Assembly: GCA_013041925.1 (NCBI GenBank)
Contig: JABDRB010000033.1
Location: 62,148 to 126,147 of the forward strand
Length of the DNA: 64,000 nt
Direction of reading: 5' to 3'
Origin: Akkermansiaceae bacterium
Lineage (GTDB): Bacteria; Verrucomicrobiota; Verrucomicrobiia; Verrucomicrobiales; Akkermansiaceae
Shown here: positions 17,804 through 25,335 of the stretch, in pieces
Layout: the number at the start of each line of letters is the position of its first letter
How positions within the stretch are numbered: the first letter of the stretch is position 1
The notes under the pieces: model-generated
Told to the model about the DNA's origin: nothing
Seen by the model: the letters and a program-made list of their open reading frames with translations, nothing else
The model's database searches: none
Translations under genes and position numbers: made by a program

Positions 17804-18076
17804 ATGCGTAGGTCAAAACAGATTGCTCTAGGCTCGGCAGGGGTCGCTTTCTTTTTTCTGATGATGGGAGGGATCGCAGGCACCGCCTACTTGCCTGGAT
17901 TTGCCGGCGAGTTAGGGCGGATGTGTCTAGCTCTTGTGACCAGCCCATTCCTCATGGAGACGGCGATTTTCTTTCTCGCCTTGGCGCTCTTGTTTGCCGT
18001 CAATGGCTGGCGCCGTAATCGTGAGGGGGATGATTGGGTGACCTTGGATGAAAAAGGCTTACCGAAGAAGAGGTGA
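17804..18076 (+). CDS. Small two-helix membrane protein, unknown
   Basis: 90 residues with two hydrophobic helices (about 8-30 and 48-67) and a charged C-terminal tail (GWRRNREGDDWVTLDEKGLP). It lies 58 bases upstream of the VKOR-thioredoxin gene on the same strand, but a hairpin followed by T-rich sequence separates them. I do not recognise a family. Confidence 0.55.
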   Translation: MRRSKQIALGSAGVAFFFLMMGGIAGTAYLPGFAGELGRMCLALVTSPFLMETAIFFLALALLFAVNGWRRNREGDDWVTLDEKGLPKKR

Positions 18077-18106
18077 TCGTTTTTTGATCTCCCAGCCTCT
18101 TTTTTA
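18067..18106 (+). terminator. Possible terminator after the small membrane protein
   Basis: AAGAGG (18068-18073) can pair with CCTCTT (18096-18101), with an inner GGTGATC/GATCTCC pairing, followed by a run of seven T. It overlaps the stop codon of the 17804-18076 gene. The stem is interrupted, so termination may be partial. Confidence 0.4.
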
Positions 18107-18134
18107 TACATTCTGGCTCGTCATCGAGGACGAG

Positions 18135-19355
18135 ATGAAGATGATGTCAGACATGACAAAATCCATGGAGATCAAGCCGTCGCTGCGATGGATCATTGCG
18201 GTTTTGGCCATCGCCGCCGCAGCAATGAGCCTGTGGTTGACTATTGAAAAATGGTCAGGTCGCATCAATACCCTAGCTGGCTGCGGCACGGGCAGTGGTT
18301 GTGCCAATGTGCTAGGAAGTAAGTGGTCGGTTGTCTTCGGGGTGATTCCCGTCAGTGTGTTTTCCTTTTTTCTCTACCTCGCAGTGCTGGTAAGTTTATG
18401 GGTAAGAGGTGAAAACGTCCGATGGTGCAGAATGCTTGTAGCGTGGATGTTTCTTGCCGCCGCGGTATGGTTCACGGGACTGCAACTATTTGTGCTTGAT
18501 GCCATCTGTCCGTATTGCATGACCATGCACGGGTTAGGTGTTGCGTTGGGACTCTTTATCTTATGCGCGGAGCACAAACGTGGGCAGATGGTCCTGAGAT
18601 CGCTCTCATCACTGACGATCGCGGTCGCCATGGTGGCCGCTCTGGCTGTGGTGCAGCATTTTGGCCCCGAGCCGCCAACGCACCGGGTCGATGACCTCTC
18701 CGGACTCGCAACATCTGAGTCGAATGATGTGCACGCGCTTGGTGTGGGTCGTGTGGTTTCTTTTTTGGAGGGAGAAAAATCTTACCGAGTCGAGGAGCTT
18801 CCGCATCTGGGTGACGTGGATGCCTCGTATGTGATTGTGAAGTATTTTGACTACACCTGTGAGGCATGCCGTGACATGCATGACCATCTCGGGGAAATCA
18901 TGATCAAGCACCCGGGCAAGCTTGCGGTGATTGTGTTGCCAGTGCCTCTGAATAGAAAATGCAACCCCAGCATGCCGCCGGGGGTAAAGGGTCATGCCAA
19001 CGCCTGCGAATTGGCCGCCTTGGCTTTGAGGGTTTGGCGCGCCGACCCCGCGAGTTTTGCCGATTTTCACCCGTGGTTGTTTGAATATCATGACCAGCCG
19101 ATCCAGGTGGCCGAAGCCATGGCATACAGCTTGGTGGGCGAGGATAAAATGTCTGCCGTGGATGAATCTTGGGTGACGGCTCAGCTACGGCAGAGTGTGG
19201 AAGATTATAAAATTTTTGCAAAACACACACCGGTCATGCCTAAAATCCTGATTAAAGAGAGCTTGATGATCCAAGGGAAGACAAAGGATCTGAAGGCATT
19301 CGAGTTGATCTTGGAGAAGCATCTGGGAATCAAAGAATCAGGGGCTGCTCGATGA
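18135..19355 (+). CDS. VKOR-like membrane oxidoreductase fused to thioredoxin-like domain
   Basis: About 406 residues. The N-terminal half is a four- to five-helix VKOR domain with paired cysteines in GCGTGSGCANVLGSKW and the active-site CPYC. The C-terminal half is a periplasmic DsbA/thioredoxin-like domain with CEAC in FDYTCEACRDMH. Bacterial VKOR fusions reoxidise the thioredoxin partner with quinone and so make disulfides in exported proteins. The ATG at 18135 has GAGGA just upstream; the ATG at 18141 gives a better spacing and is equally possible. It could support the many exported Cys-containing proteins here (inference). Confidence 0.9.
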   Translation: MKMMSDMTKSMEIKPSLRWIIAVLAIAAAAMSLWLTIEKWSGRINTLAGCGTGSGCANVLGSKWSVVFGVIPVSVFSFFLYLAVLVSLWVRGENVRWCRMLVAWMFLAAAVWFTGLQLFVLDAICPYCMTMHGLGVALGLFILCAEHKRGQMVLRSLSSLTIAVAMVAALAVVQHFGPEPPTHRVDDLSGLATSESNDVHALGVGRVVSFLEGEKSYRVEELPHLGDVDASYVIVKYFDYTCEACRDMHDHLGEIMIKHPGKLAVIVLPVPLNRKCNPSMPPGVKGHANACELAALALRVWRADPASFADFHPWLFEYHDQPIQVAEAMAYSLVGEDKMSAVDESWVTAQLRQSVEDYKIFAKHTPVMPKILIKESLMIQGKTKDLKAFELILEKHLGIKESGAAR

Positions 19356-20356: not shown

Positions 20357-20427
20357 GCGGGTATAGCTTAATGGTAAAGCTCCAGCCTTCCAAGCTGATT
20401 ATGCGGGTTCGATTCCCGCTACCCGCT
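20357..20427 (+). tRNA. tRNA-Gly (anticodon UCC)
   Basis: Acceptor arms GCGGGTA and TACCCGC pair perfectly. The D-arm is AGCT-TAATGGTAA-AGCT and the anticodon loop CTTCCAA gives TCC. The T-arm GCGGG-TTCGATT-CCCGC is perfect. The discriminator is T and CCA is not encoded. Confidence 0.95.
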
Positions 20428-20480: not shown

Positions 20481-21071
20481 ATGAAAACTACTATGAAATA
20501 CGCGCTGTTTGGTGCTGCGCTTGCATTGGTTACACCCATCTATGCAGAAGCGCCTGATTGTTATAAGCTATCATCAGCTGTGAAGCAGGCTGTTGCGGCT
20601 CATCCAGAAAAAGTTCTTGAATTGGTCGCAGCCCAAGTTGCCCAGAACGAGTCCTGTGCCTGTGAAGTCGTCAAGGCTGCCATCGTGGCATCCGGCGCTG
20701 ACAAGCAACTCGTCGCAGGAATCGTTGAGGCCGCTATAGAAGTTGCCCCCAGTAAGGTTCGCATCATTGGCCAGTGCGCCGTTGCGGTCGCCCCCGACGC
20801 TCTCGCAGAAGTGCAAGCTGTTGTCACTCAGTATGGTGCAGCCAGTGGCGATTCCGGTCTCGGCGCCAAAGGCGGTGAGAAAGGTGGTAAGGTTGTTATG
20901 ACCCCTCCTCCTGTTCCCCAAAACCCACTTGATTTCCCTGGACAAGGACCCGTTGGCCCCACACCTGGTGGTCCTGGTGGTTTTCCACTGTTCCCTCCAG
21001 GTCTCCAACCTCCTACCATTACCCCTCCTTCTTCCACGGATGAAGGTAATCCAATTACTTTCACCCGCTGA
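20481..21071 (+). CDS. Secreted helical protein with Pro/Gly-rich tail, linked to polysaccharide export locus
   Basis: 196 residues. A signal peptide (MKYALFGAALALVTPIYA) precedes a helical domain (about 25-125) with four Cys (two in ESCACEVV) and repeated V-x-x-A-x-x-x-AP patterns. A disordered tail rich in Pro and Gly follows (PGQGPVGPTPGGPGGFPLFP). A good ribosome site (AGAAAGGA) precedes the ATG. The next gene is the outer-membrane barrel, 51 bases on, then the Wzc and Wza-like genes, so an envelope role in export is likely. I do not know a named family. Confidence 0.65.
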   Translation: MKTTMKYALFGAALALVTPIYAEAPDCYKLSSAVKQAVAAHPEKVLELVAAQVAQNESCACEVVKAAIVASGADKQLVAGIVEAAIEVAPSKVRIIGQCAVAVAPDALAEVQAVVTQYGAASGDSGLGAKGGEKGGKVVMTPPPVPQNPLDFPGQGPVGPTPGGPGGFPLFPPGLQPPTITPPSSTDEGNPITFTR

Positions 21072-21122
21072 TAGGGCTCAGTAATCAATGGTTAATCCAT
21101 CAAATCTCAACCTAACGAAATC

Positions 21123-22367
21123 ATGAAAAAACAATTTATTGCAGGAACCATGTTGCTCGCCTCATTCGGCGTAGCAGCAGCTCAGGGTCTTTACGATATT
21201 GCGCCTAATGACGATGCCACAGAAAGCTCTCCGATCAAATGGAGTGCCGGTCTGAGCGCAAGTATCGATGATAACGTCTCGCCCACCGTGCTTCCCGGCA
21301 CACCCGGCTTCGAAAATGATGTAACTTCGGTCAACGCCTACGTTGGCGCAGCTCTCGTGAGCATTACCCCACAAACCACATGGGATGTATTTGCTCGTAT
21401 TGGCGGCATCTACTACATTGACCAGCCATCCGCCGTCGGCAGCGATGACATGTTTGGTCAGGGTCGTCTTGGTGTTAACTGGGCACATCGCGTCAGCGAG
21501 CGGCTCCGTTTCAGTAGCCGCAACTACGTTGCGTATGAGCTTGAGCCTGACTACAGCTATGGTTTTTCCACAGACCGTCAAATTGGCGAATACTTGCACT
21601 ACGAGTCCGACAATGCCGTTGGTTACCGTTGGAGTGAGCGTTTTGCTACCTACACCGGGGTTAAAGTTCGCGGTCTTGATTACGGTGCCGTCTCATCGGC
21701 CAATGATCGTTTAATCACCTCTGTTTATAACCAATTCCGCTATCGCGCGTCTGAGCAGACCATCTGGACGCTTGACTATCGTTACAGCGAAACGGATGCA
21801 AGCGGAACAGCTGGTGATTCGACCAATCACTTCACCTCACTCGGTATCGAGCACCGCTTCAGTCCTAATTCTGTTCTTGCTGTCAAGGCAGGTATGCAGA
21901 TGCGTGATGTTGACGGAGGAAAAAGCAGTGACAGCCCGTTTGCTGAAGCCGCCATTCGGACCCGTGTTAACGAGCAGTTCAGCCTCCGCTCATTTGCTCG
22001 CTACAGTTTGGAAGATTACGGCACGAGTTTCCCTGGCTACACCTATGACGCCAACAGCACCTTGCGTGTTGGCGTTTCGGCAGACTACATTGTCTCACCG
22101 CAGCTTACCTTGCACGCGGGTCTTAACGTGATCATGACCGAGATGGAAGACGGCCGAGTTACCTCAGCTTTTGGTCCCGTTCCAGACTTGGACCAAGATC
22201 TTCTTAACCTTTACCTCGGTTTCTCCTACAAGGTGAACGAAGGTGTTTACGTTACCGGTTCTTATAACTGGACGGATAGCGAGGGAAACAATGGCCGTGG
22301 AACAGCTGCTGCCAGCCGCACCTACGAGCGTAACCGCGCATCCCTCGGTGTAAGAGTCGAGTTCTAA
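21123..22367 (+). CDS. Outer-membrane beta-barrel protein (BBP2-like)
   Basis: 414 residues with a signal peptide ending near AAAQG. The body is made of alternating amphipathic strands with aromatic girdles (FRYRASEQTIWTLDYRYSET, YLGFSYKVNEGVYVTGSYNW). The last residue is Phe (GVRVEF), as in many outer-membrane barrels. The pattern fits the putative beta-barrel porin 2 group, often found beside polysaccharide export genes. It ends 28 bases before a strong terminator and lies just upstream of wzc. Inferred job: an outer-membrane conduit for the exported polymer. Confidence 0.8.
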   Translation: MKKQFIAGTMLLASFGVAAAQGLYDIAPNDDATESSPIKWSAGLSASIDDNVSPTVLPGTPGFENDVTSVNAYVGAALVSITPQTTWDVFARIGGIYYIDQPSAVGSDDMFGQGRLGVNWAHRVSERLRFSSRNYVAYELEPDYSYGFSTDRQIGEYLHYESDNAVGYRWSERFATYTGVKVRGLDYGAVSSANDRLITSVYNQFRYRASEQTIWTLDYRYSETDASGTAGDSTNHFTSLGIEHRFSPNSVLAVKAGMQMRDVDGGKSSDSPFAEAAIRTRVNEQFSLRSFARYSLEDYGTSFPGYTYDANSTLRVGVSADYIVSPQLTLHAGLNVIMTEMEDGRVTSAFGPVPDLDQDLLNLYLGFSYKVNEGVYVTGSYNWTDSEGNNGRGTAAASRTYERNRASLGVRVEF

Positions 22368-22394
22368 ATTTCCTGTCAGAAAATCCAAACAGAT

Positions 22395-22434
22395 AAGCCG
22401 TTGTAGTGTCTTACATTGCAACGGCTTTTTTGTT
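22395..22434 (+). terminator. Rho-independent terminator after the beta-barrel gene
   Basis: AAGCCGTTG (22395-22403) pairs perfectly with CAACGGCTT (22419-22427) and is followed by a T-run interrupted by one G. It should separate the secreted-protein/barrel transcript from wzc. Confidence 0.85.
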
Positions 22435-22498
22435 TACATTCCCATCGTTTTTGGGGAAAACAAATCCACTCTGCGCCAAGCCGACCACCTCTGTATAA

Positions 22499-24652
22499 AT
22501 GCAAACTGAAAATACCAATCAAAACGAAGCTTCCCTGCATGCCATCGACTATTGGCAGGTTCTTAAGAACCGCTACGGTGTCATACTCCTCACCTTCCTT
22601 TTGGTCTTCCTCACGGCAGCGGTCATCACCTATGTGATGCCGAAAAAATATGAGAGTATGGCCTTGGTGGAAGTGAAGCCGATTGTGGATGTTGATCCCA
22701 CGCTCAGCAGAGCTGGTGGTGGTATGGGGCCGCAAATGACGAGGCAGTTCATGAACACGCAGTTCGAAATCATCATCGCTTCTGAAACATTGGGGCTTGC
22801 GATCAACCGGATTCAGCTGGAGACGAGATGGGGTAAAGATCGTAGCGATGTCTTGAAAATACTTAAAGGTATTGTGAAGACGAGTCAAAGAAGGGGAACC
22901 GACCTCATTGAGATATCGGTGAGGCACCGAAAGAAAGAGGAGGCGCAAGCTATTGCGAAAGCCGTCTATGAAGCGTACAAGGAGCGTCGATACGATCTTG
23001 AAATGAGTGTGCGTAAGGATCAACTTAAGGCCATTAAGATCGAGCTGCAAAATAAGAGCGACCGTGTTGCCGAGCTTCGCAAGCGCCTGATGGACATTGC
23101 CGAGAAAGTGGGACTGATTTATATTGAAACCGAAAGAGGTGACGAAACCATGGGCGATAGCTTGGGGCTGCGTGAACGTGCAGAAAAAGAGCTCTACGAG
23201 GCAAAGCGTGAGATGGAGCAGGTATCGCTTCACATCAATAAGCTGCTTTCTGTGGATAACGATGATTTGATCAGTGTGGTAGCGGAGCTGCCCGAAGTGG
23301 GATTCAGGGAGGCTTATAACAAGTATGAAGATGCCGTGGCTGAACTCCAAACCATGAAGGCGTCTGGGTTGGGTAATAAGCACCCTGACATAGAAATGCG
23401 AAGAACACGCATCACGGAATTGAAGAAAAACTTGGAGAAGCGCGCCATCAACGTCAGAGATTCCCTCAAACACCGCTTGGTCCTCGTCGAAGGAAAAGTG
23501 GAAAAATTAAAAGCCGTTGTCAACGACTTGCAGGATGAAGGAACGGAGAAGGCTCGCTCGATTCAGGAGTTCAACATTGCACGTAAAGAGTATCAAACCG
23601 CGCGTGGTATCAAGGAGGGCATGGAAGTGCGATACGATATTGAAAAGACAAAAACCGTATTGCCGCCGACCAATATCATTGTGCACCAAATCCCTGAAAT
23701 TAATGGTAACCCTGTGAGCCCTAATGTGCCCCTCAATCTCGCATTGGGTGCCGTAGTCGGCTTGATCTTCGGAGTGGGTATCGCCTTCTGTCTTGAGTAT
23801 CTCGATACCTCAGTGAAGAGCTTGGAGGATGTAGAGCGTTTCCTGAAGGTGCCTGTGCTTGCTGTTATCCCTCGGGATGTGGGTGTGTTGCACAAGCAGA
23901 CCGGCATGAGCCCAGATTCAGAGGCGTATCGGATTCTTCGGACGAATATTGAATTTAACCGAAAAAATCCAGAGGACAACTCGATTACGGTGGTATCTGG
24001 TGGTGCCGGTGAAGGTAAATCCACGACCTTGGTCAACCTCGCATACATTTGTGCCCAAGGCGGATACACGACCTTGATGATTGACGCAGACCTTCGTCGA
24101 CCTCGCTTACACACCTTCTTTGATATCAATAACTCGGTGGGACTGACCAACTACCTGACAACGGATCTGCTGCTCGAGGATGTCATCCTGCAGACGCCTG
24201 TCGACAACCTATACTTTATGCCGTCTGGGATTCTCCCGGCGGATGCGGCAGGGATCTTGAACTCAAGGCGTATGTCCGAGTTGATTCAGGATGTGAAGCA
24301 ACGTTTTGATCTTGTGCTCGTGGACTCCCCGCCGATTCTCGGCGTCAGTGATGCATCGGTGCTCGCCAGTGAAGTCGATTTGACGATGATCGTTGTTCAG
24401 CATCGTAAGTTGCCTCGCAACATGCTGATCCGTGTGAAGCAAGCCGTTGAAAACGTCGGTGGCCATGTGATCGGAGTGGTGCTTAATAACGTCGATGTGC
24501 GTAGCGATAACCAGTATCAATACTACACCAGTTATTACACGTATTATGCTCCTACCACGGGTGATGAGGGTAACACGGCCGCTGATGTGGCTGTCGTTTC
24601 TACCCCAGCTGCCCCCGCAGCCCAAGATCAGAAAGACGAAGACCTTTATTAG
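22499..24652 (+). CDS. Polysaccharide co-polymerase with BY-kinase domain (Wzc-like)
   Basis: 717 residues. An N-terminal Wzz-type region has two membrane helices (about 27-46 and 405-427) flanking a long periplasmic coiled coil (about 180-370). The C-terminal cytoplasmic tyrosine autokinase has Walker A GGAGEGKSTTLVNLA, Walker A' LMIDADLRRP and Walker B LVLVDSPPIL. A Tyr cluster (YQYYTSYYTYY) precedes an Ala/Pro tail ending in Tyr. By family it controls chain length and export of a capsular or exopolysaccharide by cycles of Tyr phosphorylation. It lies between the barrel and Wza-like genes. No glycosyltransferase is nearby. Confidence 0.93.
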   Translation: MQTENTNQNEASLHAIDYWQVLKNRYGVILLTFLLVFLTAAVITYVMPKKYESMALVEVKPIVDVDPTLSRAGGGMGPQMTRQFMNTQFEIIIASETLGLAINRIQLETRWGKDRSDVLKILKGIVKTSQRRGTDLIEISVRHRKKEEAQAIAKAVYEAYKERRYDLEMSVRKDQLKAIKIELQNKSDRVAELRKRLMDIAEKVGLIYIETERGDETMGDSLGLRERAEKELYEAKREMEQVSLHINKLLSVDNDDLISVVAELPEVGFREAYNKYEDAVAELQTMKASGLGNKHPDIEMRRTRITELKKNLEKRAINVRDSLKHRLVLVEGKVEKLKAVVNDLQDEGTEKARSIQEFNIARKEYQTARGIKEGMEVRYDIEKTKTVLPPTNIIVHQIPEINGNPVSPNVPLNLALGAVVGLIFGVGIAFCLEYLDTSVKSLEDVERFLKVPVLAVIPRDVGVLHKQTGMSPDSEAYRILRTNIEFNRKNPEDNSITVVSGGAGEGKSTTLVNLAYICAQGGYTTLMIDADLRRPRLHTFFDINNSVGLTNYLTTDLLLEDVILQTPVDNLYFMPSGILPADAAGILNSRRMSELIQDVKQRFDLVLVDSPPILGVSDASVLASEVDLTMIVVQHRKLPRNMLIRVKQAVENVGGHVIGVVLNNVDVRSDNQYQYYTSYYTYYAPTTGDEGNTAADVAVVSTPAAPAAQDQKDEDLY

Positions 24653-24682
24653 TCATGAAGCCATGGCATGCCTTCAGCCTCG

Positions 24683-24710
24683 TTGACAAAACGTGAGCGT
24701 GTGGTAAGGT
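24683..24710 (+). promoter_or_regulatory. Candidate promoter before the Wza-like gene
   Basis: TTGACA (24683-24688), a 16-base spacer, then TAAGGT (24705-24710), 40 bases before the ATG. The -35 is perfect, the -10 weak. Confidence 0.35.
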
Positions 24711-24750
24711 TACTTTCCTGTCGTCTGTTCTCAATTAAATCCATTCCATC

Positions 24751-25335
24751 ATGAAAACCATATTCAAAACCATCGCACTTGCTTTCGCTGTTGTGGCGGC
24801 CTGTGCGGGCGCTGTTTCTGCGCAATCCATCTCGTCGAACACGACACTCAGTATCGAAATCAAAGGTGTTCCTTCGACCGAGCAACAGCGTATTTCTGGC
24901 CGGTATGTGGTGGATGCATCTGGCTTTGTTTACCTGCCCTTGCTTAAGGGGGGGCTCAAAGCAAGCGGGATGTCCAGCTCATCGTTGGCTCGCAAGATTG
25001 AATCGGCTTATCGGAATTCTGAAATGTATCAGAACCCACGTATCACGGTGATTTCCACCAAGGATACCGCATCCAGTGAGATTGATCGTCAAATTGTGAG
25101 TATCGGTGGATTTGTTAAATCCCCTGGACCCAAGCCCTACATGCGCGGCATGACGCTTTTCCAAGCCATTTCCGCCGCGGGTGGCGAGACCGCCTTTGGC
25201 TCAATCAAAAGAGTGGAACTGCACCGCAACGGGAAAAAATACACCTATAACCTGAAAAGGGCGGAGCATATGAGGGTGAAAGTTTACCCAGGCGACAGCA
25301 TCAATGTGCCTCAAAAAACGGCATTTGGGAATTAG
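24751..25335 (+). CDS. Short polysaccharide export protein (Wza/SLBB-like)
   Basis: 194 residues. A signal peptide (about 1-24, ending VSAQS; no lipobox Cys) leads to a polysaccharide export N-domain (YVVDASGFVYLPLLKGGLKA, then SEMYQNPRITVI). One SLBB-like domain follows (VSIGGFVKSPGPKPYMRGMT, then FQAISAAGGETAFG). E. coli Wza is about twice as long and ends in an amphipathic helix that crosses the outer membrane; that part is absent here. The protein probably works with the barrel at 21123-22367 and the kinase just upstream. Confidence 0.85.
   Translation: MKTIFKTIALAFAVVAACAGAVSAQSISSNTTLSIEIKGVPSTEQQRISGRYVVDASGFVYLPLLKGGLKASGMSSSSLARKIESAYRNSEMYQNPRITVISTKDTASSEIDRQIVSIGGFVKSPGPKPYMRGMTLFQAISAAGGETAFGSIKRVELHRNGKKYTYNLKRAEHMRVKVYPGDSINVPQKTAFGN

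Follow-up and report, generated by a model that had tools for sequence, protein, structure and literature searches.

In a 64,000-nucleotide stretch of DNA from an Akkermansiaceae bacterium (assembly GCA_013041925.1, contig JABDRB010000033.1; hereafter the window), we characterized a four-gene polysaccharide export locus that combines a short Wza-like outer-membrane polysaccharide export (OPX) protein with a separate outer-membrane beta-barrel, a polysaccharide co-polymerase fused to a bacterial tyrosine kinase (BY-kinase), and a 196-amino-acid (aa) secreted helical protein, hereafter S196. The OPX protein, barrel, and kinase are a further example of the published D1D2-OPX/barrel type of exporter; the novelty lies in a conserved fourth protein, a module that stands apart from any glycosyltransferase cluster, and the co-occurrence of that module with exosortase. 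Gene content and order, conservation across related genomes, and predicted folds make it fairly probable that these genes form the outer-membrane export module of a Wzx/Wzy-type pathway, detached from its synthesis genes, with S196 as a dedicated periplasmic part and a polymer supplied by a cluster on another contig, designated C19.

A four-gene export locus with a short OPX protein and a separate barrel

Four same-strand (+) open reading frames (ORFs) span positions 20481-25335 of the window, separated by intergenic gaps of 51, 131, and 98 nt, in the order S196 (20481..21071), barrel (414 aa, 21123..22367), co-polymerase (717 aa, 22499..24652), and OPX protein (194 aa, 24751..25335). The original prediction had placed a short Wza-like protein, a barrel, a BY-kinase, and a 196-aa secreted protein at this locus, and the ORFs, Pfam domains, and fold models confirm all four. 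The window lies on contig C6 of a 3.28 Mb genome (G000; 33 contigs, 98 percent complete) from family f1, which also holds genus g2, a group of small, Akkermansia-like genomes including Akkermansia muciniphila.

The OPX protein has a D1D2 architecture without an outer-membrane helix. It matched Poly_export (37.5 bits; cut-off 28) and one SLBB domain (30.8 bits; cut-off 27), with no Wza_C match listed at E-values up to 10 in Pfam, as expected for the predicted combination of an export domain and a single SLBB domain lacking the C-terminal helix. Its nearest solved relative by sequence was PslD (chain 9v6l, E 8e-5). The adjacent barrel and BY-kinase partner were likewise borne out. The co-polymerase shows the features of a Wzc-type BY-kinase, namely a Wzz domain (28.5 bits; cut-off 25.5), an AAA_31 domain (55.1 bits; cut-off 27), a Walker A motif at residue 501, a DSPP motif, and a Tyr-rich tail with eight Tyr; it matched TIGR01007 (172.6 bits versus a cut-off of 108) and remained below the equivalog cut-off for Wzc itself (112 versus 1068 bits). 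The AlphaFold2 model of the barrel, built from 65 sequences, has 18 strands (pLDDT 88.4, pTM 0.84), and its best structural matches were AlgE (Z 19.4, root-mean-square deviation 4.9, 305 residues) and, tied with it, Occ/Opd porins. The barrel ends in a C-terminal Phe, found in 71 of the 72 sequences compared.

The four genes co-occur and are syntenic across the order

Among 141 genomes of the class, a single-sequence search with S196 matched five others in addition to its own. In all five, the top-scoring match begins 4.1-4.2 kb ahead of a same-strand OPX match (4.3 kb in the window), a proximity that is not due to chance. OPX matches were more widespread, occurring in 166 of the 189 sampled genomes of the order. 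We collected 73 loci around the best OPX matches (L052-L124; 72 of the 166 genomes), picked to spread over genera, and found all four genes in 57 of them. The other 16 comprised six loci cut by contig ends, four from genus g2 with a different small protein, three from family f49 that lack S196 next to the barrel, and three without a visible barrel. Tandem duplicates of the short OPX gene were seen at L085, L091, and L096.

Profile hidden Markov models trained on these 73 loci, a training set that biases their E-values but not the gene order, were then applied to all 189 genomes at thresholds of E up to 1e-40 for the barrel and up to 1e-5 for S196. The barrel was detected in 137 genomes, S196 in 135, and both in 114; of the 118 genomes outside genus g2 that have the barrel, 114 also encode S196. 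In at least 103 of the 114 genomes with both, the S196 gene precedes the barrel on the same strand; among these, the match-to-match distance never exceeds 1,234 nt and is within 203 nt in 83 genomes. Among the other 11, eight carry S196 on another contig and three fell outside the matches listed, two of these three being adjacent in the fetched loci. Beyond the order, the barrel remained recognizable, its profile matching 146 genomes in a phylum-wide set of 288 (E up to 1e-6), whereas S196 was unrecognizable by profile apart from one weak match in the same 288 genomes. The neighbourhood survey proposed with the original prediction thus returned four families that co-occur in a conserved order across these genomes. 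S196 stands as the conserved extra part that had been suggested; that it also works as a part of the exporter is something that we infer from its position, conservation, and predicted fold.

Sequence and predicted fold of the fourth protein

S196 has a signal-peptide-like N-terminus (judged by eye), a six-helix domain, and a Pro/Gly-rich C-terminal tail. The AlphaFold2 model, built from 56 sequences, places the six helices within residues 27-122, with ten-residue blocks at pLDDT 93-98 over residues 31-120 and low confidence in the tail. Cys 27, 59, 61, and 99 are conserved in 51, 53, 49, and 49 of the 56 sequences, respectively, and this conservation of four Cys suggests two disulfides. The window protein had no Pfam match at E 0.1, and the 56 family members returned at the same threshold only scattered matches with no shared known domain: one member matched a glycine-rich model (E 2e-4) and four matched Rv0428c_C (best 0.013). 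The family also had no sequence match among solved structures and none in PHROGs. Foldseek returned designed repeats and TPR domains as its top rows, none below E 0.57, and the best structural match of the model was a designed protein at Z 10.5, a score within the range of common helical arrangements. The predicted domain resembles helical repeats without a significant fold match.

Mean pairwise identities within the 57 complete loci were 36 percent for S196, 37 for the barrel, 38 for the OPX protein, and 50 for the kinase, and the idea that S196 is fast-evolving was dropped, as within these loci it evolves no faster than the barrel or the OPX protein. A Ser/Thr-Pro motif within the last 20 residues recurred in 42 of 63 S196 tails (shuffle mean 19.5, maximum 33), in 7 of 7 Akkermansia-type proteins (mean 2.4, maximum 6), and in 8 of 11 proteins from other classes (mean 2.7, maximum 7), counts for which the shuffles ignore kinship. 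The S196 count uses 63 of 67 rows (omitted: one spurious frame and three paralogs), and a further subset of sequences, chosen because they had the motif, is disregarded here.

Variants of the family were observed in several genomes. Stand-alone relatives (L149, L150, L155, and L156, in genomes G194 and G220) are 298-365 aa long with an extra N-terminal stretch, and three of them have a Pro-rich tail. Three f2 genomes (L019-L021) encode S196-domain paralogs whose tails consist of repeated E-x-RRAE-like units, adjoined in L020 and L021 by a short ORF that is Fic/Doc-like by eye. At L114 (3465-4739), L116 (3460-4722), and L067 (6710-8152), the fourth protein is longer (421-481 aa) and by eye seems to contain repeats of the helical unit, its gene still preceding the barrel.

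Small secreted proteins hold the same position in other lineages

The position of the fourth gene is marked by a same-strand tRNA-Gly(TCC) gene. Of 67 loci tested, 59 have this tRNA 17-261 nt 5' of the fourth gene, 56 of them at less than 55 nt. This marker holds in the window, where ARAGORN placed the tRNA at 20357..20427 (+), 53 nt 5' of the S196 gene, and in all four g2 loci tested (L080-L083), which encode a 182-225 aa secreted protein in the S196 position. A divergent, opposite-strand tRNA-Gly(CCC) was additionally seen upstream of tRNA-Gly(TCC) at L014, L058, L059, L062, L063, L065, L066, L068, L070, L075, L080-L083, and L213.

We further examined 20 loci from among the strongest barrel matches outside the order (L182-L201). 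The co-polymerase adjoins the barrel in 19 of these, and the barrel-kinase-OPX order is kept in 14. A secreted family of 198-252 aa lies 91-217 nt before the barrel in 11 of the 20 loci, all from other classes. Loci L182-L184, from families f10 and f25 in other orders, are arranged differently: the barrel is preceded by a gene for a 615-637 aa protein that is Wzy/O-antigen ligase-like by eye, tRNA-Gly(TCC) lies further upstream, and in the interval between the two each locus encodes a small secreted protein (186-236 aa) containing a Pro/Gly-rich stretch. The two f10 proteins in this interval (L182 11170-11862, L183 11094-11804) carry a CxxCH motif in a Cys-rich stretch at their C-terminal end. 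Profile comparison, which covered the Akkermansia 224-aa protein, the other-class family, and one f25 protein, does not support homology to S196 (hhalign probabilities of 17, 18, and 27 percent, respectively). We refer to the small proteins of other lineages as positional counterparts of S196 only. A by-eye reading of the other-class proteins as S-layer-homology-like was likewise dropped, as they had no such Pfam match. In family f13 (L189, L193, L194, L198, L200), the barrel and, except at L194, the co-polymerase lie behind a membrane gene that is ArnT/GT39-like by eye, with no OPX gene detected alongside.

The Akkermansia counterpart is a published mucin-binding locus

The counterpart locus in A. 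muciniphila MucT is Amuc_1411-1414, already named as a predicted exopolysaccharide (EPS) locus in the available text of PMC13343947. Like the window, it has tRNA-Gly(TCC), a small secreted protein, a barrel (404 aa), a kinase (735 aa), and an OPX protein, in the same order (for the MucT locus, see PMC13343947, PMC13055324, and PMC3048395); unlike the window, its small protein, of 224 aa, is not demonstrably homologous to S196. In genome G100, the 224-aa secreted protein lies at 1,688,582, a barrel with Gln134 at 1,689,282, the 735-aa kinase with a nine-G tract at 1,690,589, and the OPX protein at 1,692,853. One of the two Poly_export matches of this genome, at 2,526,857-2,527,144, falls inside the amuc_2077 coordinates given in the available part of PMC13343947. 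The barrel of another A. muciniphila locus, L177, is identical to that of L081.

The available text of PMC13055324 describes a 735-aa Amuc_1413 with a nine-G tract and a Gln134Pro change in the barrel Amuc_1412, and reports strongly reduced mucin binding in Amuc_1413 frameshift strains; mucin binding was normal in a strain that had the barrel change but lacked the frameshift. The position of the tract is inconsistent within that text, being given as codon 55 in a table and as leaving the first 72 residues unaffected in the main text, and the tract seen in the G100 kinase agrees with the latter version. The same source calls Amuc_1412 porin-like and reports no growth, mucus-binding, or metabolite effect of Q134P alone. 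The accessible portions of the Akkermansia papers treat Amuc_1412 in this porin-like sense, with no discussion of a composite translocon.

Co-occurrence and elimination suggest an exosortase-linked polymer

Pfam identified no glycosyltransferase among the nine window proteins between 17.8 and 27.1 kb. Elsewhere, the window genome encodes two phosphoglycosyl transferases (C15, C19), two Poly_export proteins (C6, C15), and two Wzz matches, over the cut-off in C6 and under it in C15. The C15 cluster has its own barrel, a 180-aa protein, a D1D2D2 OPX protein, a co-polymerase, a Wzy_C protein, and an XrtU-like exosortase. The 180-aa protein (L003 16156-16698) is small and secreted, lies between barrel and OPX protein, and had no Pfam match. 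The original prediction had raised the case of a second, full-length Wza serving the window locus; the only other Poly_export protein of the genome is that of C15, which at 271-273 aa has two SLBB domains and no listed Wza_C match, and whose cluster supplies a barrel and a co-polymerase of its own.

The C19 cluster encodes an XrtA-like exosortase over the TIGR02602 cut-off, a phosphoglycosyl transferase, two Wzy_C proteins over the cut-off, and a flippase-like protein below NCBIfam cut-offs, with no Poly_export or Wzz match found. Since C15 comes with export genes and no OPX or Wzz match was found in C19, the latter is, by elimination, the likely partner of the window module. The distribution of barrel and exosortase (over cut-off) in the 189 order genomes is consistent with this assignment, with 123 genomes having both, 14 the barrel only, 10 the exosortase only, and 42 neither. 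Within genus g2, all seven barrel-less genomes lack an exosortase, while 18 of the 19 barrel genomes have one; the exception is G100, which was searched in part, and an EpsH gene, Amuc_1470, is reported for A. muciniphila in the available text of PMC3048395.

That the module instead exports the polymer of a cluster other than C19 is a serious alternative, to which we give somewhat less weight than to C19. The C19 assignment combines this co-occurrence with elimination in a genome that is 98 percent complete and split into 33 contigs, C15 also carries an exosortase, and an exosortase over the cut-off is missing from 14 of the 137 genomes with the barrel, of which six show no match at any score. 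These points are set against the absence of both OPX and Wzz from C19, alone among the two phosphoglycosyl-transferase clusters, and against the seven g2 genomes without barrel and exosortase, two of which keep other OPX proteins.

Proposed mechanism and alternatives

In the mechanism that we favour, the BY-kinase co-polymerase would set chain length at the inner membrane and pass the polymer to a periplasmic ring of the D1D2 OPX protein. This ring would be unable to cross the outer membrane, and because the OPX protein has no recognizable membrane-spanning part, an exit through the outer membrane is required; the chain would then be handed to the 18-stranded barrel. S196, with its helical domain, its probable two disulfides, and a flexible Pro/Gly tail, would most likely act as an adaptor or gate at the periplasmic mouth of the barrel, in parallel to the TPR-type periplasmic partners of synthase-dependent export barrels, of which AlgK is an example. 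The exported polymer would most likely be the exosortase-linked polysaccharide of C19.

Several observations weigh against this mechanism. S196 is on a different contig from the barrel in eight of the 114 genomes with both, and its linkage to the module is not obligatory, because three of these eight, from family f49 (L091, L097, L103), keep barrel, co-polymerase, and OPX protein together with no S196 gene alongside. Another 21 genomes have the S196 family only, many with weak scores, and the stand-alone relatives occur without the export module. The helical fold match of S196 is no better than unrelated helical bundles give, and profile comparison does not demonstrate homology to S196 for the Akkermansia, other-order, and other-class small proteins. 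Distance correlations were tried as a guide to a preferred partner of S196 and gave none, its distances tracking those of barrel, OPX protein, and kinase about equally (partial correlations 0.32, 0.28, and 0.29). With regard to the polymer, five of the seven barrel-less g2 genomes lack any OPX protein, so that only the two that keep other OPX proteins (G087 and G202) speak for a specific joint loss of barrel and exosortase, and the co-occurrence counts come from related genomes, for which Fisher p-values overstate independence. Finally, the Amuc_1413 frameshift strains described in the available text of PMC13055324 also carry the barrel change, and one of them a further change.

The role of S196 is where other explanations compete most directly. 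S196 could be cargo, secreted alongside the polymer as a matrix or surface protein and aiding its adhesion to surfaces, a possibility that we consider rather unlikely. Its Pro/Gly-rich, low-confidence tail, the small secreted proteins in the same position in other lineages, for which no sequence relation was detected, the stand-alone paralogs, three of them with a Pro-rich tail, and the poor mucin binding of broken-kinase strains of the Akkermansia counterpart (PMC13055324, available text) would all suit such a product. The close same-strand placement upstream of the barrel (at least 103 of 114 genomes; 203 nt or less in 83) and the four conserved Cys in a small, confidently predicted helical domain are better suited to a fixed periplasmic part.

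It is more doubtful still that S196 is a chaperone or stabilizer that helps the barrel assemble and takes no part in export itself. In 50 of 103 genomes, no more than 80 nt separate the S196 gene from the barrel downstream, and a terminator-like hairpin that follows the barrel gene would set the S196-barrel pair apart as a unit. Such a hairpin was placed at 22395..22427 (+), between the barrel and co-polymerase genes, by a consensus scan that found 8 terminator-like sites in the region (5.5 on average in shuffles); with a stricter scan written for this analysis, a hairpin was detected in this intergenic region in 38 of 71 loci, the window itself not among them. Against this helper role stand the eight genomes with S196 on another contig and the second export barrel of the window genome, in C15, which has no S196 relative beside it. 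Least probable of all is an ordinary uptake porin that lies by chance beside the co-polymerase and OPX protein, since the tie of Occ/Opd porins with AlgE in structural score and the porin-like description of Amuc_1412, with no growth, mucus-binding, or metabolite effect of its Q134P change alone (PMC13055324, available text), are countered by the adjoining co-polymerase in 19 of 20 extra-order loci, the barrel-kinase-OPX order in 14 of them, and the need of the OPX protein for an exit.

Returning to the export module with S196 as a periplasmic part, we tentatively put forward a broader hypothesis, which as a whole is on balance doubtful: that verrucomicrobial export relies on a four-part outer-membrane machine needing a small, disulfide-stapled helical periplasmic protein, whose lineage versions (order, Akkermansia, other-order, and other-class types) hold the same position, are mutually unrecognizable by sequence, and in many cases end near a Ser/Thr-Pro motif, and that the module is the exit of an exosortase-linked polysaccharide encoded apart from it in the genome and the basis of mucin binding in Akkermansia. 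If correct, the proposed mechanism would give Verrucomicrobiota a widespread route of polysaccharide exit, explain the published A. muciniphila mucin-binding locus as a composite OPX/barrel exporter, and indicate a component missing from current models of such exporters. The exosortase co-occurrence offers a handle on where the exosortase-linked polysaccharide exits the cell, and a transposon library of A. muciniphila, a gut commensal, is described in the available text of PMC13343947.

Upstream of the locus, by 1.1 kb, the window encodes a VKOR-thioredoxin fusion associated with disulfide formation (18048-19355), which may be relevant to the four-Cys S196 or may be a coincidence.

Comparison with known export systems

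One parallel is synthase-dependent export, with 16- to 18-stranded barrels (AlgE, PgaA, BcsC) that work with a TPR protein (PMC9601211, available text). It shares with the window an 18-stranded barrel and a helical repeat-like secreted protein encoded alongside; in contrast, no homology was detected between the two, the helical domain of S196 is small, and the pathway proposed for the window is of the Wzx/Wzy type. Escherichia coli Wza, a class 1 OPX protein, also resembles the window protein in its Poly_export and SLBB domains and its partner BY-kinase, whereas the window protein lacks the C-terminal helix (Wza_C) and has one SLBB domain only.

A further comparison is with the exosortase/PEP-CTERM EPS system (PMC1569441; TIGR03027, TIGR03018, TIGR03007). 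The best NCBIfam match of the window OPX protein is the XrtA-associated export protein, although far below the TIGR03027 equivalog cut-off (47.7 versus 180 bits; for EpsY, NF041843, 32.8 versus 320 bits), the window genome has an XrtA-like exosortase, and barrel and exosortase co-occur across the order. Besides the low score, a difference is that the window export genes and the C19 exosortase are on different contigs.

Among the closest known systems is the composite translocon of Myxococcus and its relatives, in which a short OPX protein with two periplasmic domains is paired with a syntenic 18-stranded AlgE-like barrel and a partner co-polymerase, as in the window; Schwabe et al. describe Myxococcus EpsX as having 18 strands and AlgE as its closest homolog (PMC9601211, available text). 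The original prediction that this logic runs in Verrucomicrobiota is therefore supported in gene content, synteny, and an 18-strand AlgE-like fold, yet is not new in kind, short OPX/barrel couples having been published for 10 phyla in that study. Its list of phyla may include this one; the available main texts of PMC9601211 and PMC9603273 contain no word beginning with verrucomicrob, and the accessible portions of the literature on Akkermansia locus tags and on polysaccharide or OPX export in Verrucomicrobi hold no description of the fourth protein or of a composite translocon in the phylum. Measured by the criteria of PMC9601211, the window OPX protein is within the limit of 280 aa and consists of periplasmic domains only, without a C-terminal helix, and the barrel lies two genes upstream, inside the five-gene range. 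Among the nine neighbours scanned, only the co-polymerase qualifies as a neighbour gene, and cases with the co-polymerase closest also occur in the available data of that study. Three differences remain. All but one of the myxobacterial short OPX proteins are predicted lipoproteins in the available text of PMC9601211, while even a loose lipobox pattern matched just 4 of the 89 OPX sequences compared here, including the window protein but neither of its two nearest relatives listed; Pfam found no glycosyltransferase in the nine-protein neighbourhood of the window locus; and, compared with the myxobacterial systems, the module described here has an extra conserved small secreted protein.

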